22,227 nucleotides of DNA, from positions 1-22,227 of the forward strand of contig DHOG01000114.1 in the NCBI GenBank assembly GCA_002410715.1, in the 5' to 3' direction. Position 1 is the stretch's first letter; each line of letters opens with the position of its first letter. This DNA comes from Ruminococcaceae bacterium UBA5396 (GTDB taxonomy: Bacteria > Bacillota > Clostridia > Oscillospirales > Acutalibacteraceae). Made by a program: the position numbers and the translations under genes. The notes beneath the pieces are model-generated. The model searched no databases and was not told where the DNA came from. It was given only the letters and a program-made list of their open reading frames with translations. Shown here piece after piece: positions 2,886 to 19,223 of this stretch.

Positions 2886-4157
2886 GTGGATGAATCCCTC
2901 ATTGAGCTCATATGGAAATTCCTGAAAGCCGGATACCTGGAGGACTGGCAGTACAATGCCACGTTCAGCGGAACGCCGCAAGGCTCCGGTATCAGTCCGA
3001 TTCTCGCAAATATCTACCTAAACGATTTGGACGGCTATATGGAAGAATACAAAAATAGCTTTGATAAGGGAAAAATCCATGAACGGAACAACGAATATAC
3101 CAAGCGACAAAGCAGATACCAGCGTTTTATCGTTAAATGCGAAAAATACTGGCCAACCATGAGCAAGGAAGAAAAGGAGGCGGCGCTTGCCGAACAAAAG
3201 CGGCTGCGCAAAGAGTATCAACAATTCTCCGGACTTGACCCGATGGACGAAGGATACCGAAGAATCCAGTATGTTCGCTACGCCGATGATTTTCTTGTTG
3301 GCGTTATTGGGAGCAAATCAGATGCCGAGCAGATAAAAGCTGATATTTCCCGCTTTCTCTCGGAAAAGCTGAAGCTCACCATGTCGGCGGAGAAAACACT
3401 CATCACCCACGGCCACGACAAGGCCCGGTTCTTGGGCTACGACATCACCGTGAACGATGATAATTCCACACGCAAAACCTCAAAGGGGCAAACCCGAGTC
3501 TATATGAATCGGGTTAGATTGTATCTGCCCCGCGAGAAATGGATTGGGAAGTTGCTGGATTACGGTGTCTTGAAAATCGTGAAGGACGAGCACGGGAAAG
3601 AAAAATGGAAGCCGCTACAGCGGGATGATTATATGTATCTCGCTCCCCATGAAATCGTGGTGCAATACAACGCGCAAATCAGGGGTATCTACAACTATTA
3701 CCGCCTTGCGTCCAACGTATCGGTGCTGAACAAATTCCGGTATGTGATGGAATACAGCATGCACAAGACCTTTGCCGGAAAGTACCGTGTCACCATGACT
3801 AAGGCGAAGCTAAGATACCACAAAAACGGCGTGTTCTCCGTTCCCTACCGCAATAAATCCGGCGAGAAATCCGTTGTATTCTACAACGGGGGCTTTCCAC
3901 GCGTGAAATACGCAATGGGGAACTTTGTTGACCAAACACCCGAATATGCAAAGCTGAACATGCCCGGAGAGCTTTACTTCCGCTTCAAAGCGGGGATATG
4001 CGACCTATGCGGCGCAATCAGCAAGGATGTGACGGTGCATCAGGTCGGGACGTTGAAAGACTTGACCGGGAAAACGCAGTGGGAACAAGCCATGCTGAAA
4101 AAGCGGCGCAAAACTCTGGTTGTATGTAGAGATTGCCATGCCAATATTCATTCGTAG
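2886..4157 (+). pseudogene. ltrA: Group II intron reverse transcriptase/maturase, N-terminally truncated
   Basis: 423 residues remain of a protein that usually has about 600. The visible parts, in order, are GTPQGSGISPILANIYL (RT block 4), RYADDF with the catalytic YADD at 132-135 (block 5), LKLTMSAEKT (block 6), ARFLGYDI (block 7), the thumb/maturase domain X, and a C-terminal HNH endonuclease with zinc cysteines (CDLCG, CRDCHANIH). The N-terminal RT blocks are absent; reading upstream in frame gives only a few RT-like residues before a stop. The HNH motif reads VHQV where relatives usually have VHHI. The GTG at 2886 lacks a ribosome site. It is probably inactive. Confidence 0.88.
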
Positions 4158-4172
4158 ATTTGAGTAAATGGA

Positions 4173-4206
4173 GAGCCGTATACATTGAGAGGTGTACGTA
4201 CGGTTC
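4173..4206 (+). ncRNA. Group II intron domain V
   Basis: This is a 34-nt hairpin starting GAGCCGTA and ending TACGGTTC. It has the conserved AGC catalytic triad, an upper stem TACATT/GGTGTA closed by a GAGA (GNRA) tetraloop, and the 2-nt CG bulge. The helix-loop architecture matches bacterial domain V exactly in length. Confidence 0.92.
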
Positions 4207-4267
4207 GGGGGCGAGCGCCCGGAAACCTGCCGCAGTGATGCGGTAAGGCGCTTGGTGCTTAGCCTAC

Positions 4268-4390
4268 AACATCGGCCAAATTCCAAACTTTGAGCGGATT
4301 ATCTCCGTGATCCGAAGCCGGGAAATATCAGCCTGCATTATCCTGCAAGCCAAAAGCCAACTCAAAGCCCTGTATAAGGATCACATGGAT
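4268..4390 (+). pseudogene. virD4: VirD4/TraG-type conjugative coupling protein, internal fragment (3' exon of the intron)
   Basis: The frame starting at the intron's 3' end reads NIGQIPNFERIISVIRSREI, then ACIILQAKSQLKALYKDH. This is the region just after the Walker B motif in type IV coupling proteins of clostridial ICEs, where the usual context is DEFANIGQIP. The intron therefore sat between the codons for FA and NIG. Homology stops near 4390 and is followed at once by an hsdS fragment. The 5' exon is not present upstream of the intron. A deletion removed the rest of the transfer region. Confidence 0.8.
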
Positions 4391-4391
4391 A

Positions 4392-4649
4392 ATGATGTTC
4401 TTTGGCCGATCAGAGTTTGACCGTTACGTTCGCTTTCATTCTTGGGGTAGTGCAAGGGAAACATTTAGTTGGGATGATATGTGTGAAGTTAAAATTCCGA
4501 TTCCAGACATCAGGGTTCAGCAATATATCGTTAACATTTATACAGTTTATCAGTTGCGTCGCGAAATAAATGAGCAGCTCAAGGTACAGATTAAAGACCT
4601 CTGCCGGATACTGATAAAAGGCTCGCTGGAGGAAGCGGCGAGGGTGTAA
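4392..4649 (+). pseudogene. hsdS: Type I restriction specificity subunit HsdS, C-terminal fragment
   Basis: About 85 residues match the end of HsdS proteins: FFGRSEFDRYVRFHSWGSAR, then SWDDMCEVKIPIPDI and the closing central-conserved/coiled-coil region REINEQLKVQIKDLCRILIK. A full HsdS has about 400 residues with two target-recognition domains; here only the tail of the second remains. The 5' break coincides with the virD4 fragment. The stop is followed by AAGGAGG and the hsdR start 14 bp later, so the original hsdS-hsdR operon order is preserved. hsdM is absent. Confidence 0.8.
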
Positions 4650-4662
4650 GGAGGAAATAACC

Positions 4663-7191
4663 GTGGACTATGAATTCATACGAGGGCAATTTACCGAAGC
4701 CGAACTTGAATCGGCAATCATTACCCTGTTTGAACAACAGGACTATATTTATGTCCACGGTGATGGTATCCATCGCCGCAATGAGGACATCTTACTTGAG
4801 AACGATTTGCGTTCTTTCCTTTCTGGGAGATATAGCGATCTCACGGAGTTCGAGGCGGGAAAAATTATAAGCCGTCTACGCAATATTCCTACAACGCCGT
4901 TATATCAGGGCAATAAGGAAGCGTTTTGGCTTGTAAATGAAGGCTTTGATTTGGAGCGGGATGATATCGAAAAGCTTCCCATACACGTTGATTATATTGA
5001 CTATGACAACCCTTATAAGAATATCTTTAAGGTGGTCAATCAATTCACCGTTGTGGATACTCGGGAACGCCGCCCCGATTTGCTGCTCTTTGTAAACGGA
5101 ATACCCGTCACCATTTTCGAGTTCAAATCTGCCATTAACGAAGGTACAACTATTGCCGATGCGCACAGACAAATTACAGTGCGATACAACCGTGACATTC
5201 CCAAGCTGATGAAAACTTGCTTTTTGTCAGTCATCAGCGATGGAGCAAATACTCGCCTCGGTACTATCTTTACCCCCTATGAGTATTACTATGCCTGGAA
5301 TAAGGTAGACGATAAAGAGCGTGTTGCCGATGGGATTTCGTCACTACTCACCATAATTAAGGGTGCGTTTGCCAAAGAGCGTATCCTGGCAATCCTTCGT
5401 GATTTCGTGTTCTATCCCAATGATGATAGAAAATACAAAGCGGTCGTTGCCCGATATCCACAGTTTTTCGCCGCCAATAAAATCCTTACAAATATCAAAG
5501 AGCATTTGAAACCGAATGGGGATGGCAAAGGCGGTACCTACTTTGGTGCAACTGGTTGCGGCAAGACAATGATCATGCTGTTTCTTGCGCGCCTCATCGG
5601 TCAACGGGCGCGAGATACATTCAACAATCCCACCATTGTCGTCATTACCGACCGTGAAGATTTAGATACACAGGCGTCTGAATTATTCGCCAACGCACAG
5701 CATTATCTCAAAGAGAACGAAAACCATCTGCGGAGTATCGAGAGCAGACTGGATTTGCAGGATGTATTAAGCACCACCGAAAGCGGCGGCGTATATATCA
5801 CAACCATTCAGAAGTTCTGTGAAACGACAGGATTGTTGTCAACGCGTAATAATATCATCTGTATTTCAGACGAGGCACACCGTACTCAAACCGGCACGGG
5901 AGCAAAGCTGAAAAAGACCGATGAAGGCGTATTCACTACATACGGATTTGCCAAATATCTGCACGACAGTTTTCCAAACGCCACTTATTGCGGCTTTACG
6001 GGAACTCCAATTGATGAGACAATGGCTGTGTTTGGCAAAATAGTTGACAGCTATACAATGAAAGAATCCAGCGATGATGGAATTACTGTCCGAATTGCTT
6101 ATGTGCCACGTTTGGCAAGAGTAATTCTCTCCGAAAAACAGGCTCAAGAAATACAAAAATACTATGACAAATGCACTGAGGAGGGGTCTAATCCTGAGCA
6201 AGTCGAGGAAAGCAAAAAGGCAATGAGCAAGATGCGAGCTGTTCTCGGTAACCCCGATCGGTTGAAAAAACTGGCAGCGGATATTATCCAGCATTATGAG
6301 GCCCTCTGTGGTGAAAAACCTGAAATTGTGCAAAAGGCGATGATTGTATGTTCCGACCGTACTCTGGCGTTCCATTTGATAAATGAAATCATTAGTTTTC
6401 GTCCGGACTGGGGCATTGCCCGAAAAGCAGAAGACGAGAGCAAACTGGATGAAGATAAGCTGAAGAAGTTAATCACTTTGCCCAAAATTAATCTTGTAGC
6501 AACTCAAGGTACTGATAAGGATGCAGAAATACCGGGTCTTTACGATGCTTGCGGCACAAAAGAATACCGTAAAAAGCTTGATAAACAATTCAAAAACAAC
6601 GAGTCTAACTTCAAAATTGCCGTTGTTGTGGATATGTGGATCACAGGCTTTGATGTGCCGTCACTTGCTGTAATGTATATAGACAAGCCGCTTCAAAAGC
6701 ACACCTTGATTCAAACTATATCTCGTGTCAATCGGGTCTTTGAGGGGAAAGATTGCGGCTTGGTGGTTGACTATATCGGCATCAAGCAGGACATGTTAGA
6801 AGCAATTAAAAAATATGGAAATCCACAGGAAAGTCCCATAGACGAACTTGCGATTTCACTGTCCATTTTCCGCAACCATCTCGTAATGATTGAAGAATTG
6901 TTGCATGGCTTCAATTCTGAAAAGTTCCATTCTGGTGAACCGCTCGAACGATTGATGTGTCTGAACAATGCTGCCGAATACATCCAGATGAGCAAAGAGA
7001 TAGAAACTCGATTTATGGGACTGTCCCGTAAGCTGAAAGCGGCATATGAAATCTGCTTTCCTTCTGGTGAATTGGCTGACGCCGAAACCGGCAAGGCACA
7101 GTTCTACTTGGCAATTCGTTCAATCATCTATAAACAAATAAAGGGCGATAATAAAAAAAGCAAATGTGGGATTTGTGGGGGTACTATATGA
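4663..7191 (+). pseudogene. hsdR: Type I restriction endonuclease subunit R (HsdR), C-terminally truncated
   Basis: 842 codons remain of an ATP-dependent DNA translocase/nuclease usually near 1000 aa. A PD-(D/E)xK nuclease is visible (D139, E153, K155: RRPDLLLF ... IFEFKS). The SF2 motor shows GATGCGKT (295-302), DEAH (403-406), GFTGTPI and QTISRVNR. The GTG start follows AAGGAGG. Family similarity ends around IRSIIYKQIKGD. The last 13 codons (a lysine stretch and CGICGG) look foreign, so the C-terminal domain that holds HsdR on the HsdM/HsdS core is missing. With hsdS only a fragment and no hsdM, the system should not restrict. All motor and nuclease residues are nevertheless intact. Confidence 0.88.
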
Positions 7192-7430: not shown

Positions 7431-8729
7431 TTAAAATACTGTCTGTTCGGAAATATCGGTGGCCAAGGCTTTCAGCGCCTTTTGCACGATGCCCTTCCGA
7501 AGCTTAAATTCCTCATCCTTGGATAAACCGGGGTTGCCGGTCGGATAGGGGATAGCGACAGCCGGCACGATACGGTTCGCACCCACCGCTAACGAGATCG
7601 GCACGATCGAGCAAATATGTACGACAGGGATGCCAAAGCTTTCAATTGTTTTCGCCATCGTTGCACCGCAACGTGTGCAGGTTCCTCAGTTGGATGTCAG
7701 GATCGCTGCCTGTATTTGATTGCGGAGCATATCCTGGGCGATCTCCTCGGCATACCTCTTGGCGTTGCTTACGGCGGTAGTATTGCCGACAGTCGCATAG
7801 TAATGGTTGTACAGCTCGCCAAAGCCGCCTTCGCGCTCGATCGCCCGCATGGCGTCCAAAGGAAGAACGCGGTTGGGGTCTTCGGTCGCATAAACGGGAT
7901 CATAGCCGCCGTGAACGGTCATGTATTTATCAGCGGTCAAATTATCCAAGCCGGTGATATCGTAGATACCGTATAGGGAGGCGTTAGCAGACTCGATGTG
8001 ATCCGGGTTGCCCTGCGGGACGATGCCGCCAGAGGTTATGAGGGCGATCTTGGCATGGGCAAGATCTTTGAGGGCGGGGGCCGGAACGACCCTGTCGAAC
8101 ACAGGCATAGGCAGCTCGGTGGTGAACGGTTCCCCGCGGAGCTTTTTGATCAGCATATCAACGCCGCGCTCCGCGCCGTTCTTTTCGGTATGCACATTTA
8201 TACGGAAGCCCTGGGGAATATAGCCTTCTTCCTCTGGGAAACCGATCTCTTCGCCCCGCAGGAGTTTGAGCGCCAGCTTACCCATGGCGGGCATGACCTT
8301 TTTCATACCCGCGGCGGAGATGGGCGCTTTTACGATATACACGGTTTTCTTAAACATCTCGGCGCCGGGGTTTTCCGGATAGAGCGCTGTCAGCACAGGA
8401 ATGGAAAACTTGCTTTTTACGGCGTCGCATACCGTGCCGCATGCCAGGCCGTAGCGTCCTGCGTTAAATCCTGGGCCTGCGATGAGCATCTCGGGTCTTT
8501 TCTCATCAATCAGGGCCAGTATTTTCTCCAAAGCTTCGTCTTGATGATCGGCAAAATAGTTATCGCCGCAGATGATGGTGGAAGTGATCTGTGCTTCCTC
8601 TGCCAAAAGGCTCTGGAGCGCCACACCCGGCCCTATGGGTCCATCCCGTATGATCGGGGTCTGGTCGGCAAATTCCTCACCGCCGATCTGCCCATAAAAC
8701 TGATTCAGATAATGTACAATTTCTTTCAT
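7431..8729 (-). CDS. Glycine/sarcosine/betaine reductase component B, selenoprotein subunit (GrdB/GrdF/GrdH type)
   Basis: This is a 432-aa selenoprotein if the in-frame TGA at 7686-7688 is read as selenocysteine (residue 348). The sequence around it is ILTSN-U-GTCTRCGATMAK, the diagnostic Sec motif of GrdB-family proteins. Conceptual translation that stops at UGA gives a 347-aa product and a separate 75-aa ORF, which is the same protein. In the family, component B reductively cleaves the C-N bond of an N-containing acid and passes a carboxymethyl group to the selenocysteine of GrdA. Other family signs are IRDGPIGPG near the N-terminus, GRYGLACG, LITSGGIVPQGNPD and the C-terminus EQTVF. It is the last gene of the operon, 20 bp after the grdE-like gene. 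Substrate class cannot be decided from sequence alone. Confidence 0.9.
7659..7688 (-). promoter_or_regulatory. Selenocysteine UGA with SECIS-like hairpin
   Basis: On the coding strand the UGA is followed after 12 nt by CGTTGC-GGT-GCAACG, a perfect 6-bp stem with a GGU loop. The apical loop lies 18-21 nt past the UGA, within the window used by bacterial SelB-dependent SECIS elements. The hairpin is within the coding sequence. Confidence 0.7.
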
Positions 8730-8749: not shown

Positions 8750-10036
8750 TTAACGTAGGCGGGTCGTCATGCGCTCATAGCCCATTTCGCAGCAAGAGCC
8801 CATGATAGCCGCAATCTCAACAGACAATGTACCGTCCGCACCGATGCTGTTTGCGTTCCCGCCGGTGATAACACGGGCCGTTTCGATATCGCCAATCACC
8901 CGATCCATCTTGGGCAGCACGACAAACTGGTTGCCGTTGCCATTGGTAATTACGGCATCCGCTTCGGGCGTTACATCCGCAAGGCCCTGGGACGCGCCGT
9001 CGCGGCCGCAATATTCATCGGTTACCAGCACCGTCTTGATCCCCCTCTGCTCATGGAATCGGCAATTGAGCATTAGGTCGGTCTCGGGGTTTCCGCCGCC
9101 CTCCTCGCTGATGATCATGCCATCTACGCCCAACAGGGCGGAAAGATTGCTGGTATAGTATGCGGCGCGCATCTTTTCCTTAAGCATGGCGCTTTCGTTG
9201 CTCAGCAGGACGCCCACAAAGCATAGCTCCTTGCCGTGGCGGCGCAGCAGATCCATAATGATAGGGTTGTTTTCGTGGTGGATGGTGGCGTTTTTATGGC
9301 CGGGGGCGGCACAATTGCCGCTGACGATCGCACCATCCAAAACTTCCAGAGGCCCGATCAGGGTGGAAAGGATGCCCTTGACATTCAGCCCATATATGTA
9401 GGTATCATGCATCAAGCCCTGGCATTGAACCATGTCTACATAAACCACCTTGGGCAAATCGGGATACTTAGCGCCCATCTCCAGGATGGACTCGTGCTCA
9501 AACGTCTCCACCTCGTCGGGCGCCAGGGCCAAGGACAGCTTTGCCATATAGGCGGCGGTCTTTAAGCCGGCAATCCGTACGGTGGCCTCGTGCGTATGCT
9601 TGTCTATCCCATCTATGGGCTGGATCAGGGGCACCAGAATGTTCATCTTGGAGAAGCTGTTGAATTCGGCACCAAGGCCACACATGTCAATAATGCCCTC
9701 CTGGAAGGCTACAATCTTGCCGGAGGTGGCGACGCAGCATTCTTCCAGCACATTGGTCTCGCCGTTGCCTACCGTCTCCACATCGCCGACATACCCGGGA
9801 AAGATTTGGCCTGAGCCGCTCTTCTTATAGCGGGGCTGTATGACATCTTTGATGGGAACGATGCGGACGGACTCGCCGGGGCGGGCAATATCAAAATCGA
9901 CGGACTGGATGTTGGAATCCTCCATTAGGTATGCGGCCAGGTCTTTTTTGTCTATGTAGAGGATTCCGTTTGCAAAGCTGCTTTGTTCTGCAAACCGGAT
10001 ATCCTTCACATGAAATTTGTTCAACGTGAGCTTCAT
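8750..10036 (-). CDS. Component B pyruvoyl-type proprotein (GrdE/GrdG/GrdI type, alpha and beta subunits)
   Basis: This 428-aa protein matches the usual length of the GrdE family. Such proteins are cleaved into two subunits, and the new N-terminal cysteine becomes a pyruvoyl group that forms a Schiff base with the amine substrate. The candidate cleavage point is Asn241-Cys242 in IVSGNCAAPGHKN. Other family landmarks are GQIFPGY, ECCVATSGKIVAFQEG and the glycine-rich EEGGGNPETD. I chose ATG 10036 (MKLTLNKFHV), which has AAAGGAGG upstream; an upstream in-frame ATG at 10069 has no such site. The gene follows grdX by 23 bp and precedes the selenoprotein subunit by 20 bp. Together they make one component B. 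Confidence 0.9.
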   Translation of the reverse strand: MKLTLNKFHVKDIRFAEQSSFANGILYIDKKDLAAYLMEDSNIQSVDFDIARPGESVRIVPIKDVIQPRYKKSGSGQIFPGYVGDVETVGNGETNVLEECCVATSGKIVAFQEGIIDMCGLGAEFNSFSKMNILVPLIQPIDGIDKHTHEATVRIAGLKTAAYMAKLSLALAPDEVETFEHESILEMGAKYPDLPKVVYVDMVQCQGLMHDTYIYGLNVKGILSTLIGPLEVLDGAIVSGNCAAPGHKNATIHHENNPIIMDLLRRHGKELCFVGVLLSNESAMLKEKMRAAYYTSNLSALLGVDGMIISEEGGGNPETDLMLNCRFHEQRGIKTVLVTDEYCGRDGASQGLADVTPEADAVITNGNGNQFVVLPKMDRVIGDIETARVITGGNANSIGADGTLSVEIAAIMGSCCEMGYERMTTRLR

Positions 10037-10059
10037 GGTTTCCTCCTTTGTTTTGTCTA

Positions 10060-10452
10060 TCAACTCCATTGGGCGACCTCGAGGGCGCGCTCAATGATCG
10101 ATAGGTCGATTAGTTGAAAATCCGCTTTTGCTTCATCACTGCATTGTTTGTAAAGAGGAATATCCCGCAGGCGGTACAGATCCTCCGTGTACTGGAGCGC
10201 CCGCTCCATCAGCCGGACCGATTCAAAATCGACCCGACTAGCGGTAGCGGATAGCAGAACCGTCTTATAAGGCGTAATGTCCGGCCGGATGCTGCCTGTC
10301 AGGGGGTGGGTGAGGAGCTTAACGCCCCCTATCACTTCCTGATAAACGATCCGAAGCAGCCCCAGCACATCCGTATCATGGTATTCCAAATTCGGAAAAT
10401 CCTGCACGGCCAGAAGCGGGTTGTTCGTAACGCAACGAAAAGCGTGCTTCAT
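10060..10452 (-). CDS. grdX: GrdX family protein
   Basis: This 130-aa protein begins MKHAFRCVTNNPLLAV and carries the family block KLLTHPLTGSIRPDITPYKT. GrdX is typically the first gene of glycine/sarcosine/betaine reductase clusters; its biochemical role is not settled. I chose ATG 10452 because AAGGAGG lies just upstream; the longer frame to 10521 overlaps the permease end. It is 40 bp downstream of the permease and 23 bp upstream of the grdE-like gene, clearly within one operon. Confidence 0.85.
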   Translation of the reverse strand: MKHAFRCVTNNPLLAVQDFPNLEYHDTDVLGLLRIVYQEVIGGVKLLTHPLTGSIRPDITPYKTVLLSATASRVDFESVRLMERALQYTEDLYRLRDIPLYKQCSDEAKADFQLIDLSIIERALEVAQWS

Positions 10453-10492: not shown

Positions 10493-11854
10493 TTAGATAT
10501 ACATGAACAGGAACCCGACAAAGGCCAGACCCAAGGCTATTGGCAGAAGGTACATCATCGTCTTCATCGGATCGACCTTTTTGCCAAGGCTGCTGCTCAC
10601 CAGCGCGGCGCAAATCATGGCGGTGAAGTTGGCGGGCGGCATCATCTGGCCGGCGCTGGCCAGGTGGGAGCCCACGATGGATGCATGCGCCCCGGAGATG
10701 CCCATGTTCATGAGCAGCGGGCCGAAGAAAGTGAAGATGATGTTTTGTGCGCTGGTCTGGGAACCGGTCAGCATGCCCATCAGCACCACGGATGCACCAC
10801 CGCCGATCTTGATGACGTTGTCGCTCAAATGCTCCATGGTTTCGATGATCACATCAATCTGCCCGCCCGCGAGGATAGCGCCCACAAAAAACGCCGCGCA
10901 AACCTGAATCTTGAGGCTGGGAATGACGTTTTTGAAACCGCTGGACAGGATATCTTTGGCGTTATTCCGGACATTCTTAAAGATAAAGGTAATCAAGGAT
11001 GCCGCGATCAGGATCATCACGATGCTGTTGGTTAGCCCCTTGACGACGGGTATTTGACTGAGGAAGGTATAGACGGGCCCCAGCAGCATTTTCATGATAT
11101 TGAGGTTAAAGATGGAGTTGAGGATGATCAGCACGATGACGAGAATCAGCGGCAGAAGGCCGGCGAATCCTTTTTTAACGATCGTCAGCGGGCTCTCCTT
11201 GGGAATCATATCCGCGGGCAGAGGCTGGTTCTTCACGAAGAAGAAAGCGGCGTAGGCCGTGCTCAGCACCAGCAGAATGCCGGATGTAATGAACGTAATG
11301 TTAACCGTTTGATCCGTGACCGCCTGCGGCAGATCCAAAATCGAGGTAGACAGGATGACCGCCTGCGAAATTGGCGGCATAATGGAGCCCAGCATGCAGC
11401 CCAGCGCAATCGTTGCCGCTACCTTTTCGCCGGACATTCCCATGCCGGCCAGCGCCGGAACAACCAGTAGGCCAATAACGGCTGCCGCACCGTTGCAATC
11501 GCCAAAGGCTTCGCCGCCCACAACGATGGCGATAATCACGGCGCAAACCATACCCCTTGCGGATTTGCCGAAGAGGGAGCGGAACAAATCCACCACCGTA
11601 TCCAGCGTGCCGATCTTGTCCTGTGTCTCACCGTAAAAGCTGCCTACAAATGAAAGTGCCATGACCCAGGATAACCGGTCAAGGCCGTTGATCCAGGCTT
11701 TCGCCCATTCGATTGGGTTGTAAATTTTACCGCAGATCAGCGTAACAATGGCCCCGATCAACAGGGCTAGGGGGACGTTTCCGCCAATCTTTGGTATTTT
11801 TTTCACCATGATGAGAGTAAATAACAAACCAACCGGAATGATTACACTATACAT
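10493..11854 (-). CDS. IT-superfamily (TRAP large-permease-like) membrane transporter
   Basis: This 453-aa, strongly hydrophobic protein has about 11-13 predicted membrane segments. Two halves carry matching re-entrant motifs, GCMLGSIMPPISQAV in the first and ASAGQMMPPANFTA in the second. This is the inverted-repeat architecture of ion-transporter-superfamily carriers such as TRAP DctM permeases for carboxylates. No DctP binding protein or DctQ gene is nearby, so it may act alone as a secondary carrier. As the first gene of the operon it probably imports the substrate of the component B downstream. Exact family placement is uncertain; a GntP- or NhaC-like permease is an alternative. Confidence 0.7.
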   Translation of the reverse strand: MYSVIIPVGLLFTLIMVKKIPKIGGNVPLALLIGAIVTLICGKIYNPIEWAKAWINGLDRLSWVMALSFVGSFYGETQDKIGTLDTVVDLFRSLFGKSARGMVCAVIIAIVVGGEAFGDCNGAAAVIGLLVVPALAGMGMSGEKVAATIALGCMLGSIMPPISQAVILSTSILDLPQAVTDQTVNITFITSGILLVLSTAYAAFFFVKNQPLPADMIPKESPLTIVKKGFAGLLPLILVIVLIILNSIFNLNIMKMLLGPVYTFLSQIPVVKGLTNSIVMILIAASLITFIFKNVRNNAKDILSSGFKNVIPSLKIQVCAAFFVGAILAGGQIDVIIETMEHLSDNVIKIGGGASVVLMGMLTGSQTSAQNIIFTFFGPLLMNMGISGAHASIVGSHLASAGQMMPPANFTAMICAALVSSSLGKKVDPMKTMMYLLPIALGLAFVGFLFMYI

Positions 11855-11998
11855 ATCCTATCTCTCTCCGCATCTTTATTTTTTATATGCCCACCATAAC
11901 TCCTTGCGGCCGCTAATCCGGTGAAGTTAGGTCGCTGCTATATTTGAAAAATTGAGATCGAAATAATACATCGGAGACCCATTTGTTTGTTTGCCGTT

Positions 11999-12027
11999 AT
12001 TATATGGCCAATCATAATGTCTTTCAA
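11999..12027 (-). promoter_or_regulatory. Promoter of the permease-grdX-grdE-grdB operon
   Basis: On the minus strand TTGAAA and a perfect TATAAT are 17 bp apart, giving a leader of about 135 nt before the permease ATG. The spacer and -10 include a loose dyad (ATTAT ... ATAAT with TGGCCA at its centre) that could bind the divergent regulator. Confidence 0.65.
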
Positions 12028-12221
12028 TACAAACATCTTATTTATCGATTATATCTATCTTTGATTTATATAGAAGTTAAAAAGGAGCAGATTCAGCGGA
12101 AGTTCGCCAGTTTCATCTCTTTCCCCACAGAGCCTTCGCTTTTCCCCGCGGGCTGGTACATGGAATCGTTTTTCTGTATTTGTATTAATTTAAATATGAA
12201 TTATTTAAAACAGTGTGCAAC

Positions 12222-12254
12222 TTGCTGGAAACATACGGTGCTTTATGTTAACAT
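12222..12254 (+). promoter_or_regulatory. Candidate promoter and palindromic operator of the GntR-lyase gene
   Basis: TTGCTG (12222-12227) and TATGTT (12244-12249) are 16 bp apart. The -10 overlaps the perfect palindrome ATGTTAACAT (12245-12254), which suggests autoregulation. A stem-loop CGGCTT-TCGT-AAGCCG follows at 12268-12283 in the presumed leader. The rest of the intergenic stretch 11855-12221 shows no gene. Confidence 0.4.
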
Positions 12255-12323
12255 CTATCATAGAGATCGGCTTTCGTAAGCCGCTGTCCAATGCAACAAA
12301 ACGTGCGAGGTGGTATATCTTCT

Positions 12324-14057
12324 ATGTCGGATCACACGCTGAAACAAAAAGGCATTTCTCTTTATTATCAGGTGGAAACGCACATCCGCGAGAAAATTGA
12401 ATCAGGCGAATGGGCCTTGGGCTCCCGGCTCCCCACGGAAAATGAATTGGCGCAGCATTTTAACGTGAGCCGCACCACGGTCCGCCAGGCTGTCGACGGC
12501 ATGATAGAGGCGGGCCTGCTTACCCGCAGGCAGGGGTCCGGCACTTACGTGGTCAAATCCCCTTATGCCAGAAATCGTCTTAATACCCAGCCCAGCGATA
12601 CCGTATGCAAGTATGTTTATATGCCCTTCCTGCAGGATGATCTGAAGCGATCATACCAGAATCTGCTGCTGACCATTATCGGTCATATCCTTATGCTGCA
12701 CCGTCAAAAGCTTATTACCAGGGAAGACGGCCAAGAGCTTTTGCGGTTTATCCTGCCCCTGATGGACAGGCACGCTTATACGATCGGCTCCAACCCCTTG
12801 AATGAGGACTGTTTTTTAAATTTTGAGCAATACCTGATTTCCAACCTAGGCCTTAAGCTTGGCAGTAAGATCCTCATAGCCCGCAGCCGTAACGACATGA
12901 CGCCGACTATGATGCGCATGAGTGTGCGTGATGGTTTGCTGGTCGTTTACGCGCGCTTGATGGCCCTGATGCGCCGCATACTTGCCTTGGCGGAGGAAAA
13001 CCAGGGGCGCGTCATAACCGGCTATACCCATTGGCAGCCTGCCCAGCCCATTACGCTGGATCACTATTTTTTGGCCATCGCCGAAGCGTTGGAGCGGGAT
13101 TTTGCGCGCCTGCTAAATGCTTACCAGAGGCTAAACCTATCGCCATTGGGCAGCTGTGCCTTTGCGGGGACCTCGTATATGATCGACCGCGAATATACGG
13201 CGCGGCTTCTTGGTTTCGACGGGATCGTTGCCAACACGCTGGATGCGGTGGCGTCAAGGGATTTCCTCATGGAGCTGTCCGCCGATTTTTCCACGCTTGG
13301 TTCTACGATCGCCCGTTTTTCCCAGGATCTTTACCTTTGGTCTACAGCGGAGTTCGGTTATGTCAGCTTTTCGGATTCTACTTCCTGCTGCAGCAGTATT
13401 ATGCCGCAGAAAAAGAACCCGCTATCCGCGGAGCACATCAAAAGCCGCACCGCGCATTTGTCCAGCGCGTACATGGACATCGTTATGTGCTTAAAAGGCA
13501 CGGTATATAGCCACAGCCGCGACCTATTTGAGTGTATGCCGCCATTTTGGAACTGCATGGAGCAGATGACGAGCATTTTGGAGCTAACATTGGATATGCT
13601 GCACGGGATCGTATTTAATTACGATCGAATGGAACGCCTTGCCGATACCAATAACTCGGTATTGACGGATGTATCGGACTTTTTGGAACGAAGAGGGGAG
13701 TTCCCATTCAGGAGCGCGCACAACATCGTGGCGTTGGCTATAAGCGAGAGTGCGGCAAAACAAAGGGCCGGGATTGCTCTGAGCGACCTGAATTATATAA
13801 GCCAAAAGGTCTATGGGCACGATACCTCTATTACAGAAGAAGAGTGGGCTGCCCTAATGTCGGCCCACAACTCCGTTTCGAACAAGGCCAGCGAGGGAAG
13901 CCCGTCCCCCGGTTCCTGCCGCAAAATGTTTCTATCGCTGCGAGCCACCGTTAATCGTGACGGCGAGTGCCTGGACCAGCTTTTGAATTCCCTGCAGTTG
14001 TCCGAGCAATTCCGTCTGGAGCAAATCAACGCCTTGATGAACAGTACGGCAAATTAG
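12324..14057 (+). CDS. GntR-type DNA-binding domain fused to an argininosuccinate-lyase/fumarase-superfamily domain
   Basis: This 577-aa protein has two parts. Residues about 8-78 are a GntR winged helix (ISLYYQVETHIREKIESGEW, LPTENELAQHFNVSRTTVRQ, GSGTYVV). Residues about 100-570 are a complete lyase fold of the argininosuccinate lyase type rather than the usual UTRA or FadR effector domain. Superfamily motifs are kept: ARSRND (186-191), GYTHWQPAQP with the catalytic His at 236, and SSIMPQKKNP with the flexible-loop Ser at 357/358, K363 and N365. The His before RSRND in true argininosuccinate lyases (LHTGRSRND) is replaced (ILIARSRND), and the Asp after QKKNP is Leu. I chose ATG 12324 for its GAGGTGG site; ATG 12291 is also possible. 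It is divergent from the reductase operon and probably regulates it. It may sense, or cleave, an N-substituted dicarboxylate. Confidence 0.85.
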   Translation: MSDHTLKQKGISLYYQVETHIREKIESGEWALGSRLPTENELAQHFNVSRTTVRQAVDGMIEAGLLTRRQGSGTYVVKSPYARNRLNTQPSDTVCKYVYMPFLQDDLKRSYQNLLLTIIGHILMLHRQKLITREDGQELLRFILPLMDRHAYTIGSNPLNEDCFLNFEQYLISNLGLKLGSKILIARSRNDMTPTMMRMSVRDGLLVVYARLMALMRRILALAEENQGRVITGYTHWQPAQPITLDHYFLAIAEALERDFARLLNAYQRLNLSPLGSCAFAGTSYMIDREYTARLLGFDGIVANTLDAVASRDFLMELSADFSTLGSTIARFSQDLYLWSTAEFGYVSFSDSTSCCSSIMPQKKNPLSAEHIKSRTAHLSSAYMDIVMCLKGTVYSHSRDLFECMPPFWNCMEQMTSILELTLDMLHGIVFNYDRMERLADTNNSVLTDVSDFLERRGEFPFRSAHNIVALAISESAAKQRAGIALSDLNYISQKVYGHDTSITEEEWAALMSAHNSVSNKASEGSPSPGSCRKMFLSLRATVNRDGECLDQLLNSLQLSEQFRLEQINALMNSTAN

Positions 14058-14244: not shown

Positions 14245-15420
14245 TCAGCCGGGAATATGGCAGCTTTTCCAGGTCAGTTTGCATTGCTTCTTGATCGAAG
14301 AGGCTGTGCAAGCCAATTCATCAACGCTGTTGAACTTTTTGTGGCTGCTGCTGATGCTAGCTACCGAAACGCTCATAGTTGGGCAATGTTCTTCCTCGCC
14401 TTTCCTGTTTTTTGCCACAATCTAACCGGAATCCAGGTCGTCTTTCGAATAGAAAGCGCGGATGCCCTCGTCAAAGCGGCGGATAAAGTCACTGCAGACA
14501 TCGCCGATGTCGTATGTGTTCAGTATGGCGATAAAGTCATCCCCGCCGATATGGCCGACGAAATTGCCTGCCGGGATCGTATCCGTCAGGAGGTTCGCCA
14601 CGAATTGGATCACGCGATCGCCGTTGCCAAAGCCATAGGTATCGTTGTATGCCTTGAAGTTATCCAGATCGATATATAGGATGGAACGAGGCTCCTGGGC
14701 CGTAATGGATCGCTGGATGTTTTTCCCGACAGGTTCCAGGGCAGCCCGGAAAGCGGGTTAAGGTGCCTGGAACTGAAGACCTCGATTTCCATCGTTTTCT
14801 CCAGAAGGTCCTTGATGGTGACGACCCCCAGGTATGTGTTCTGCTCCGTTACAACGATGAAGTCATAAATGGATCTGAGAGGCCGGGACATAGCCATCCT
14901 GGAAACGATATCGATGGCCGTTGTGGAATCCGTCACCAGGGGAGACGTGTTGATGATATTGGAGATCGGGCGCCTGGCATGAAGGCTGAAGCCATATTGC
15001 CCGCTCATCATATGCTCGATGCCGGAGCGTGTCACGATTCCCATGATCTCTTTTTTTCATTGACGACCGTGATGCCCATAAGGTTTTCGTCGCGCAAGAA
15101 AGCGTCATACACCTCCCCCGCGAGGTCCTGCGGCGAGGCGGTGATACCTTCTCCGCAAAGGTTACCGATATAAAAGCTTGTCACGGCCCTGAAATGGTGA
15201 TTCTTCTGGGCGTTGCTTGCCCGAATGGAATCCAGGACATGCGGCTCGATCTCGCTGATGTCGCTTTGCGGATACTGGATGAAATAGCCCTGTCCGTAAT
15301 GAACGCCGATGTCGATAAGCGCCCGTAGCTCCGACTCTGTTTCTATGCCTTCGGCGATCATGGCCATGTCGGTGAGGCAGCAGAAATCATACAGGCTTTT
15401 GACGAGCAATTTCTTGTAGG
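14245..15420 (-). pseudogene. EAL-CBS-GGDEF cyclic-di-GMP protein, 5'-truncated and frameshifted
   Basis: Reading on the minus strand, the sequence encodes the end of an EAL domain (MIAEGIETESELRALIDIGV, GQGYFIQYP), a CBS pair (ISNIINTSPLV, LGVVTIKDLLE) and a GGDEF domain with GGDDF. Three lesions break it. An extra A in an A7 run near 15050 shifts the frame after VVNEKK. A second shift near 14720-14745 precedes the GGDEF segment ILYIDLDNF. An in-frame TAG at 14419-14421 precedes the final part (IVAKNRKGEEEHCP ... SVDELACTASSIKKQCK). The 5' end is cut at about 15420 by the hypE fragment. All catalytic EAL residues before that point are lost. Confidence 0.8.
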
Positions 15421-15781
15421 AATGCAAGACCCAACGCGGGGCGGCCTTGCCACCGCGCTCTGCGAAATATCCGAAAGCCATCATATCGGTGCTTTGATCG
15501 AAGAAGATCAATTGCACATCCGTCCGGCCGTGGGCGCTGTCCATGAGCTTTTAGGCACAGATCCCCTGTATTTTTCCAGCGAGGGAAGGATGATTCTTGT
15601 CATTGAAAAAGGCTATGGCATGGAAATCGTAAATATCTGAAATGCCTTGAGATCTGCCGTGACGCAGAACAAATCGGAACATTTAACAAGGCGTACAAGC
15701 AAAGTTTGTATTCGAACACCTCCGGGAGGCGAACGAATCCTTAGTATGTTGGAAAACCAAATGATATCCAGAATCTGCTGA
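15420..15781 (+). pseudogene. hypE: HypE hydrogenase maturation protein, C-terminal fragment with premature stop
   Basis: The frame starts MQDPTRGGLATALCEISE, the late signature of HypE, and continues to LLGTDPLYFSSEGRMILVIE. A TGA at 15638-15640 interrupts it. The same frame then continues NALRSAVTQN ... RTPPGGERILSMLENQMISR and ends IC-stop at 15779-15781, which is the canonical HypE C-terminus. HypE dehydrates the thiocarboxamide on its C-terminal Cys to cyanide for [NiFe] hydrogenase. The N-terminal two thirds are missing, with the break at the EAL pseudogene, so this is a relic. Confidence 0.8.
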
Positions 15782-16562: not shown

Positions 16563-18155
<1,593 letters not shown>

Positions 18156-18284: not shown

Positions 18285-19223
18285 ATGAATCGGATTTTAA
18301 TTGTAGAGGATGAAAAGCCTATTTCAAATTTAATAAAAACTAATTTATCAGATGCCGGATATCACTGCACGTGTGCATTTGACGGAGAGGAAGCAGCAAA
18401 TCTTATCGAAAAAGAATCCTTTGATTTGATTTTGCTTGATATTATGCTGCCAAAAATTAACGGCTATGAGCTGATAGAGTATATCAAAAACTTTAAAACA
18501 CCGGTTATTTTTTTAACTGCAAAATCAGATGTTTTGGACAAAGTAAAGGGACTGAAGCTCGGAGCTGAAGATTACCTTACAAAACCGTTTGAAATCATTG
18601 AGCTTTTGGCAAGAGTTGAAACCGTGCTGCGACGCTATCATAAAAATGAAGAGATGCTCAGAGTTGATGATGTTACAATCGACACCCTTTCCAGGGTCGT
18701 GAAGAAAAATGACGAGATTATAAATTTGACAGTAAAGGAGTACGAAATTCTTTTGCTGTTTGTAAGAAACAAAAACATTGCTCTGTTTCGTGACCGCATC
18801 TATAAAAAGGTGTGGGGCGATGTTTTTATGGGCGATACAAGAACCAACGAAAAGCAGGAACGCCTTTTTAATAATAAGATAGAAAACTATAAAGCAAAGG
18901 GATATTCCGAGGAAGATGCAAAGAAAGAGGCGGCAAAATGGGTTGCGGTACCGGGAACCAGCGAGCATCAGTTAGGGTTGTCAGTAGATATCGTTTCATT
19001 GAATAATCAGATGCTTGATGAGTCACAAGAAAAAACGGAAGAACAAAAATGGCTGATGAAAAACAGCTATAAATATGGATTTATTCTTCGCTACCCTTCA
19101 GATAAAATTGAAATAACAGGGATCGGCTATGAACCATGGCATTATAGATATGTTGGAAAAGAAGCAGCTGCTGAAATAACTCAAAAAGGAATTGCCTTGG
19201 AGGAATATTTAGGCAACCTTTAA
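18285..19223 (+). CDS. Chimera: OmpR/VanR-type response regulator fused to VanY-type D,D-carboxypeptidase C-terminus
   Basis: Residues 1-187 are an OmpR-family regulator: receiver with E8/D9, phospho-acceptor Asp52, Thr78 and Lys100, then a winged-helix start (DDVTIDTLSRVV, LTVKEYEILLLF, IYKKVWGD, FMGDTRT). The recognition helix that normally follows (VDVHIQRLRKKL-like) is absent. From residue 188 the protein is the catalytic end of VanY (NEKQERLFNNKI, PGTSEHQLGLSVDI, FILRYPSDK, YEPWHYRYVG, ALEEYL), with zinc ligands H228, D235 and H286 and base E283 intact. The VanY export signal is missing, so the enzyme part would stay in the cytoplasm. The join falls on an Arg-Thr that both parents share. 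An in-frame deletion across vanR-vanS-vanY is the simplest origin. It is probably non-functional in both roles. Confidence 0.85.
   Translation: MNRILIVEDEKPISNLIKTNLSDAGYHCTCAFDGEEAANLIEKESFDLILLDIMLPKINGYELIEYIKNFKTPVIFLTAKSDVLDKVKGLKLGAEDYLTKPFEIIELLARVETVLRRYHKNEEMLRVDDVTIDTLSRVVKKNDEIINLTVKEYEILLLFVRNKNIALFRDRIYKKVWGDVFMGDTRTNEKQERLFNNKIENYKAKGYSEEDAKKEAAKWVAVPGTSEHQLGLSVDIVSLNNQMLDESQEKTEEQKWLMKNSYKYGFILRYPSDKIEITGIGYEPWHYRYVGKEAAAEITQKGIALEEYLGNL

Follow-up and report, generated by a model that had tools for sequence, protein, structure and literature searches.

A GntR-lyase fusion protein encoded divergently from a transporter-Grd operon

The GntR regulators are divided into the FadR, HutC, MocR, YtrA, AraR and PlmA subfamilies, and in the part of the source considered here a fumarase-superfamily lyase is described for none of them (PMC4494728). 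In the MocR/PdxR proteins a GntR winged helix is followed by a whole enzyme fold that acts as the sensor, in HutC the effector domain has the fold of chorismate lyase, and AraR is chimeric, joining a GntR-like winged helix to a C-terminal domain of other origin (all PMC4494728). In a survey of companion domains GntR is credited with 76, and the main text of that survey, in the portion available, does not contain the word lyase (PMC5882156); the fusion in the accessible part of PMC3359211 joins a ligase to ArgH. The preliminary description of this DNA knew of no GntR-lyase fusion, and likewise we found no description of a GntR protein fused to an argininosuccinate or fumarate lyase in the open-licence literature. 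An enzyme fold as a GntR sensor is already known from MocR; what is new to us is that the enzyme is a lyase and that the operon from which it apparently came is visible.

The protein reported here resembles MocR/PdxR in its layout, yet carries in place of a PLP aminotransferase a fumarate-releasing lyase, an enzyme type that is cofactor-free. Its winged helix is most like that of HutC-type GntR-UTRA regulators that adjoin stand-alone lyases, whereas the UTRA domain is missing and a full-size lyase stands in its place. It is chimeric as AraR is, but the C-terminal domain of AraR is LacI-type and not a fumarase-superfamily lyase. With ArgH it has the fold, the catalytic residues and the fumarate-side contacts in common; it differs in the amine-side residues, the clade, the genomic setting and the added winged helix.

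Composition and recurrence of the fusion

The window, meaning the whole stretch of DNA analysed (22,227 nucleotides), carries the fusion in these positions:

12324 to 14057, plus strand: GntR-lyase fusion gene, 577 amino acids (open reading frame; Pfam GntR, Lyase_1 and ASL_C2; AlphaFold2)
12360 to 12551, plus strand: GntR winged helix, residues 13-76 (Pfam; nearest to GntR-UTRA regulators adjoining stand-alone lyases)
12570 to 14054, plus strand: whole lyase domain, residues 83-577 (alignments, Foldseek)

The frame is open without a break from ATG 12324 to 14057 in the translation of the window, and an alternative in-frame ATG at 12291 would make the protein 11 residues longer. Pfam finds GntR (PF00392) at residues 13-76 with an E value of 9.5e-22 and 76.9 bits against a cut-off of 27, which places the protein in the GntR superfamily, Lyase_1 (PF00206) at residues 177-374 (E 4.3e-44) and ASL_C2 at residues 448-518 (E 1.8e-6). 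The same scan finds no UTRA, FadR-C or aminotransferase domain, so that neither the C-terminal UTRA of GntR/HutC nor the class I aminotransferase domain of MocR is there to assign the protein to those subfamilies; its C-terminal part consists of Lyase_1 and ASL_C2 only. A winged helix and a whole argininosuccinate-lyase-type enzyme are thus found in one open reading frame, as the preliminary description had claimed. Because R83 lines up with the second residue of stand-alone lyases that begin MRERL, the linker between the two parts is nearly nil. The AlphaFold2 model of the single chain, built from 54 sequences, has a mean pLDDT of 89.7 and a pTM of 0.83; it is weak at a hinge near residues 81-90, where the block mean is 62. 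Among the best 50 Foldseek matches the top solved structures are argininosuccinate lyases, delta crystallins and EDDS lyase, at 25-32% identity and a TM-score by target of 0.86-0.94, and in the sequence search against chains none of the 60 matches listed, out of 61, covers the winged helix and the lyase together.

PF00392 and PF00206 are present in one protein in 34 of 120 listed homologues, the list being 120 of the 7846 that pass the E-value limit. Among the 34, P0033 and P0035 are truncated and P0032 is chimera-like. Full-length fusions are found in three genomes: the one holding the window (G000), an uncultured Lachnospiraceae (G655, locus L001) and a genome found within the genus of the latter (G1426, locus L154).

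Could the gene be an artefact, two adjacent genes joined by an assembly or frameshift error? Two metagenome proteins, P0030 and P0032, resemble fusion/ArgH chimeras joined at SSIMPQKKNP, and therefore this loop can mislead assemblers. Fusions 43-68% identical to the window protein lie on many contigs, always with the join at the start of the lyase, and the independent full-length copies at L001 and L154 run counter to the possibility, raised beforehand, that relatives are always two genes and the join an assembly error. With the open frame, these copies uphold the earlier statement that the gene is continuous, with no frameshift at the join, and we find an artefact scarcely credible. P0030 and P0032 themselves are probably assembly errors at a conserved stretch.

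The fusion is sparsely distributed. In its own family it is present in one of 300 sampled genomes (among the matches listed), in its own order in one of 394 and in its own class in one of 391, each time its own genome only; in the family of G655 it is found in one of 397 genomes, G655 itself, and in the genus of G655 in two of six. G425 (order sample) and G1226 (class sample) also exceed the limit, but with stand-alone lyases. These samples overlap, and the strict E limits used for the own order, the own class and the family of G655 could miss diverged or broken copies. Viral contigs give ten loci and no fusion, none of the ten matching ahead of query residue 119.

Stand-alone lyases and the origin of the fusion

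The stand-alone lyases are found in operons whose genes were named mostly by eye from translations. In Petroclostridium one operon (L141) consists of an opine-dehydrogenase-like gene, the lyase, a GntR-UTRA regulator, TAXI and TRAP; a second (L142) holds the lyase, DctQ/M/P, asparaginase and a GntR-UTRA regulator, with malic enzyme on the opposite strand. In Ammoniphilus (L002) asparaginase, two lyases, a GntR-UTRA regulator, TAXI, TRAP and an opine-dehydrogenase-like gene occur together, the regulator gene overlapping the second lyase by 4 bases. The genome of the window has a stand-alone lyase of its own on C74 (L128) with TAXI, TRAP and an opine-dehydrogenase-like gene; a transposase-like frame (by eye) is inserted at 3970-5400 of that locus, between the lyase and the TAXI/TRAP genes. 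Elsewhere the order is symporter, lyase, malic enzyme and aspartase (G655, C16), or asparaginase, lyase and aspartase (Selenomonadaceae, L007). NCBIfam bears out two of these names, TAXI for the L128 protein and aspartase for that of L127; for the name opine dehydrogenase it gives no match with the L128 piece and only NAD-binding families below cut-off with the L002 protein. Such neighbours, transporters and dicarboxylate genes, would fit a catabolic role of the stand-alone lyases, namely the release of fumarate from N-substituted aspartates.

In a tree of 77 rows, in which the stand-alone lyases are a chosen subset, all 31 fusion rows tested lie on one side of a single branch (SH-aLRT 100), and the closest stand-alone rows are P0041, P0053 and P0054. 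The 31 rows leave aside P0001 (S357R; the window translation was used instead), P0032 (chimera), P0033 and P0035 (truncated). In a more careful tree of 42 of these rows, 15 of them fusions, the fusion clade is supported at 100/100 and in 100% of 200 bootstrap trees, and the placement of its sister is weaker, at 89/88. Both trees nest the fusion clade among stand-alone lyases, with the ArgH rows, including L083 of the same genome, far outside, and place a single origin of the fusion inside the stand-alone lyases.

The winged helix points to the same neighbourhood. With the fused winged helix alone as query and matches taken at E <= 0.01, the two best of 35 matches in Petroclostridium (G1226) are both lyase-adjoining regulators (96.3 and 91.9 bits, the third scoring 60.3), and the best of 35 in Ammoniphilus (G656) is the lyase-overlapping regulator (71.8 bits, with the runner-up at 59), whereas the best other match in the own genome reaches 51.4 bits. 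The 31 fusions are 51-65% identical to the two Petroclostridium regulators; the UTRA nature of the lyase-adjoining regulators was assigned by eye from their sequences. Since each half of the fusion finds its match in one member of an adjacent gene pair, the simplest account would be that, in the GntR-UTRA regulator of a catabolic lyase operon, the lyase encoded by that operon took the place of the UTRA sensor. In the stand-alone operons the lyase precedes the GntR gene and in the fusion this order is reversed, therefore the fusion was not made by simple read-through. As each of its domains matches one of two genes that stand side by side in living relatives, the sensor can be traced to an enzyme of the operon that the regulator probably once served.

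Active site and ligand

The alignment used to compare residues holds four groups (fusions, 31 rows; stand-alone P rows, 43; stand-alone locus rows, 9; ArgH, 15) and, in addition, the archaeal rows L005, L006 and L015, which belong to none of them. Three codons are referred to below:

13029 to 13031, plus strand: codon of H236, equivalent of duck delta-2 crystallin H162
13392 to 13394, plus strand: codon of S357, equivalent by alignment of EDDS lyase S280 and delta-2 crystallin S283
13512 to 13514, plus strand: codon of H397, equivalent of EDDS lyase Y320 and of the ArgH Tyr, at an amine-side position

The motifs RSRND, GYTHWQPAQP and SSIMPQKKNP, noted at the outset, are indeed present in the translation. 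S188, R189, N190, T235, H236, S357, K363, N365 and E370 are invariant across the four groups, so that the marks of the fumarase/aspartase superfamily (the Ser loop, the Thr-His pair and the Lys/Asn/Glu set) are found in 31 of 31 fusions. EDDS lyase S280 and delta-2 crystallin S283 are presumably the catalytic Ser, the loop Ser acting as base. The numbering, checked by M290 of the D290M/Y320M EDDS lyase chain 6rx8, makes the first Ser of SSIMPQKKNP the equivalent, S357; the second Ser was considered as the catalytic residue and is ruled out by it. E370 is, by spacing, the partner Glu of H236. In the part of the source considered, duck delta-2 crystallin H162 contacts the fumarate part, and its Glu partner is highly conserved across the superfamily (PMC2779060).

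The amine side differs. His397 is found in 31 of 31 fusions and 43 of 43 stand-alone P rows, at a position that is Tyr in ArgH (15/15). The Gln of ArgH (15/15) is replaced by Phe402 in 28 of the 31 fusions, its Asp (15/15) by Cys404 in 30 and its Lys (15/15) by Met405 in 26. Among the 43 stand-alone P rows Phe402 is found in 0, Cys404 in 3 and Met405 in 2, and this rarity suggests that the ligand of the fusion may differ from the substrate of the stand-alone lyases. EDDS lyase, an ASL-fold C-N lyase that acts on N-substituted aspartates and for which six substrate-proximal residues are named in the part of the source considered (PMC12363623), is 25% identical. The positions of its R112, N113 and N288 are kept in the fusions; those of Q159 and Y320 are His, the former as in ArgH, and that of D290 is Leu, Ile or Val in 31 of 31 fusions, compared with Asp in 15 of 15 ArgH rows. 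To judge from these residues, the fumarate side and the chemistry are conserved and the amine side is altered.

The preliminary description had read the loss of the His before RSRND and of the Asp after QKKNP as a clue to the ligand. Both are indeed missing from the window protein (L184 and L367). The His is lost in 18 of 31 fusions and kept in 52 of 52 stand-alone rows; none of the 52 stand-alone rows has the Asp, so its absence is not specific to the fusions. The wider point, a ligand other than argininosuccinate, gains support from the arginine-side residues and from the presence of an ArgH in the genome. Since the arginine-side residues are replaced, an N-substituted aspartate (R-NH-succinate) is the most likely ligand, and since the catalytic set is complete the lyase domain probably also cleaves it to fumarate and an amine. 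Most likely the protein responds to a ligand as a regulator, and it may cleave that ligand as well.

That it is a true argininosuccinate lyase serving arginine synthesis, with an incidental GntR domain, seems to us very improbable. The score alone would say so, at 351.2 bits against the TIGR00838 argH cut-off of 279.5, and therefore automatic naming could call the protein argininosuccinate lyase; but the fusion falls outside the ArgH clade in the trees, the genome has a separate ArgH on C187, and the Tyr, Gln, Asp and Lys of the 15 ArgH rows are replaced.

The lyase fold might also be a dead enzyme that binds the ligand without turnover, its residues being kept for binding the succinate part. 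Many MocR proteins are described as binding their ligand without turning it over. Binding alone could have preserved H236 and its partner Glu, whose crystallin counterparts, in the part of the source considered, either contact the fumarate moiety or order it (PMC2779060). In the fusions the catalytic loop is looser, Thr or Ala replacing S358 in 6 of 31 rows and Ala replacing P366 in 7 of 31, and the region near S357 (S358, I359, P366) is more variable than in stand-alone lyases; P0001, a database cluster representative that agrees with the window protein at every other position, carries Arg at 357. Against this, relaxed selection would predict loss of S357 and of the loop Lys, Asn and Glu, which are present in all 31 fusions, and we regard a dead enzyme as unlikely. 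Whether enzyme-derived sensors turn their ligand over, measure flux and reset themselves is a general question that this protein can serve to test.

The divergent operon and its regulation

Next to the fusion gene lie the following features:

11855 to 12323, no strand assigned: divergent intergenic region (promoter and operator scans)
10493 to 11854, minus strand: DctM-like membrane transporter, 453 amino acids (PF06808, E 1.1e-9)
10060 to 10452, minus strand: GrdX family protein (NF038093, 88.8 bits, cut-off 40); the listed frame begins at TTG 10521, and ATG 10452 is preferred
8750 to 10069, minus strand: GrdG-like alpha subunit of component B of a Grd-type reductase (PF09338, 579 bits); a second possible start is at 10036
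7431 to 8729, minus strand: GrdF-like selenoprotein, 432 amino acids
7648 to 7685, minus strand: SECIS_4 element directly after the TGA (RF01990, 49.0 bits, gathering 38)

The GrdF-like frame runs through a TGA (Sec) at 7686-7688, read as ILTSN-U-GTCTRC. Both Grd proteins stay below the cut-offs of sarcosine reductase component B (643.5 of 800 bits for GrdF with NF040794; 512 of 780 for GrdG with NF040793), and GrdF scores 602.9 bits with the glycine reductase selenoprotein B model TIGR01917, whose cut-off is 602.2, the sarcosine model giving the higher score. Grd-type reductases are otherwise known from anaerobes; at 16878-18155 the same contig encodes a cytochrome P450-like protein. GrdA is present in G655, and none was found in the own genome, which is 73% complete.

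In three of three fusion loci the fusion gene is divergent from a transporter-GrdX-GrdG-GrdF operon. The divergent layout first described for the window (permease gene at 10493-11854) is thus confirmed, and because the linkage is kept in all three, the operon is the probable target, as had been proposed. In L001 and L154 the GrdX, GrdG and GrdF genes, with SECIS_4, follow a DctQ/M/P TRAP transporter (the L154 genes and the L001 GrdF were named by likeness). The GrdG orthologue is 86-87% identical in both other fusion genomes, while none of seven congeners lacking a match of fusion strength (four from the search of the genus of G655 and three from that of the own family, among the matches listed) has a close GrdG orthologue, paralogues being at most 48% identical or missing. 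GrdG is thus far more alike between the loci than the regulator (68%) or the transporter (22%), which suggests that a transfer from one lineage to another may have taken place and that the transporter was exchanged in it. The TRAP Q/M/P proteins of L001 are 50/63/44% identical to those of the stand-alone lyase operon L142, compared with 26/35/27% for a second TRAP nearby, and this links the fusion to lyase substrates. On the other hand, the transporters of the window and L001 are barely related, which weakens the case for a single common imported ligand. The context of the fusion points to a class of substrate for the Grd-type selenoprotein reductase.

We consider it rather probable that the protein is a one-component GntR regulator whose sensor, a complete argininosuccinate-lyase-fold enzyme gained from its own operon, responds to an N-substituted aspartate and controls the divergent operon, a reading in which we infer DNA binding, the direction of control, the class of ligand and catalysis. 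The fusion protein would bind within the divergent region 11855-12323 and control both the transporter-GrdX-GrdG-GrdF operon and itself, repressing the divergent promoters when the ligand is absent. An N-substituted aspartate, imported by the divergent transporter and held in the active site of the lyase, would alter the arrangement of the winged helices, and its cleavage to fumarate and amine would end the signal, which would be short-lived and track the supply of substrate.

More tentatively, the protein may be both the regulator and the first catabolic enzyme, sensing the N-substituted aspartate by cleaving it, with the amine (an N-substituted glycine) passing to GrdGF and on to acetyl phosphate and fumarate serving as electron acceptor. 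If this were true, the switch would read substrate flux rather than concentration, and its evolution would have consisted in the operon's own enzyme taking the place of a classical ligand-binding domain.

That the protein is mainly the lyase of the operon, its winged helix being a relic or a means of minor autoregulation, we hold to be improbable: no second lyase is seen in any of the three fusion operons, yet G33, P37, V48, S49, R50, T52, R54, G64 and Q70-T74 of the winged helix are invariant in a 32-row fusion alignment, and the divergent arrangement kept at all three loci is a usual layout for a local regulator.

Scans for palindromes, shared blocks and the HutC consensus covered the divergent regions of the window, L001 and L154. 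In the window a sigma-70-like promoter at 12027-11999 (minus strand) matches 11 of 12 positions; the number of promoter-like sites in 11855-12323, three against a shuffle mean of 2.6, is not above chance. A weak palindrome, AACATW-N8-WATGTT, occurs without mismatch at one place in the window (12230-12249) and at one in L001 (9939-9958), in both cases just upstream of the fusion gene. We rejected it as the operator: the pattern was derived from these very sites, it is imperfect in L154, and when one mismatch is allowed a match turns up in 29 of 100 and 39 of 200 shuffles too. A block shared upstream of the fusion genes is within chance: the best ungapped alignments of the regions lie elsewhere and are reached by 16 of 60 and 7 of 60 shuffles. 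No TTGTN4ACAA within one mismatch is present at the three fusion loci, nor a convincing HutC operator GT-N4-AC, L154 having one poor match; its GTMTAKAC-like site, with two mismatches, is within chance. The MocR regulators also lack a common palindrome in the part of the source considered (PMC4494728), therefore a missing operator does not exclude DNA binding by the fusion.

Upstream in the stand-alone operons, TTGTN4ACAA is exact at 5822 of L141 and at 3844 of L142, where 48 and 47 of 1000 single-base shuffles also have one, and in L002 it occurs three times with one mismatch, within a repeated 33-base unit. There TTGTACGTACATACGTACAA is present three times at 9740-9922, spaced 74-76 bases apart, upstream of the second Ammoniphilus lyase; these repeats are likely an operator array for the adjoining GntR-UTRA regulator.

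Other features of the contig may be recorded here. A probable pseudogene at 14610-15544 lies downstream of the fusion gene on the opposite strand and consists of EAL- and CBS-domain pieces whose frames are broken. A group II intron at 2886-4267 (RF00029 at 4171-4267), with a reverse-transcriptase-like frame recognised by eye, lies just before the R gene of a type I restriction system (4663-7191). At 18285-19223 one frame joins a response-regulator receiver, a truncated DNA-binding domain and a VanY-type D-Ala-D-Ala carboxypeptidase domain, and looks like a deletion fusion of two genes.
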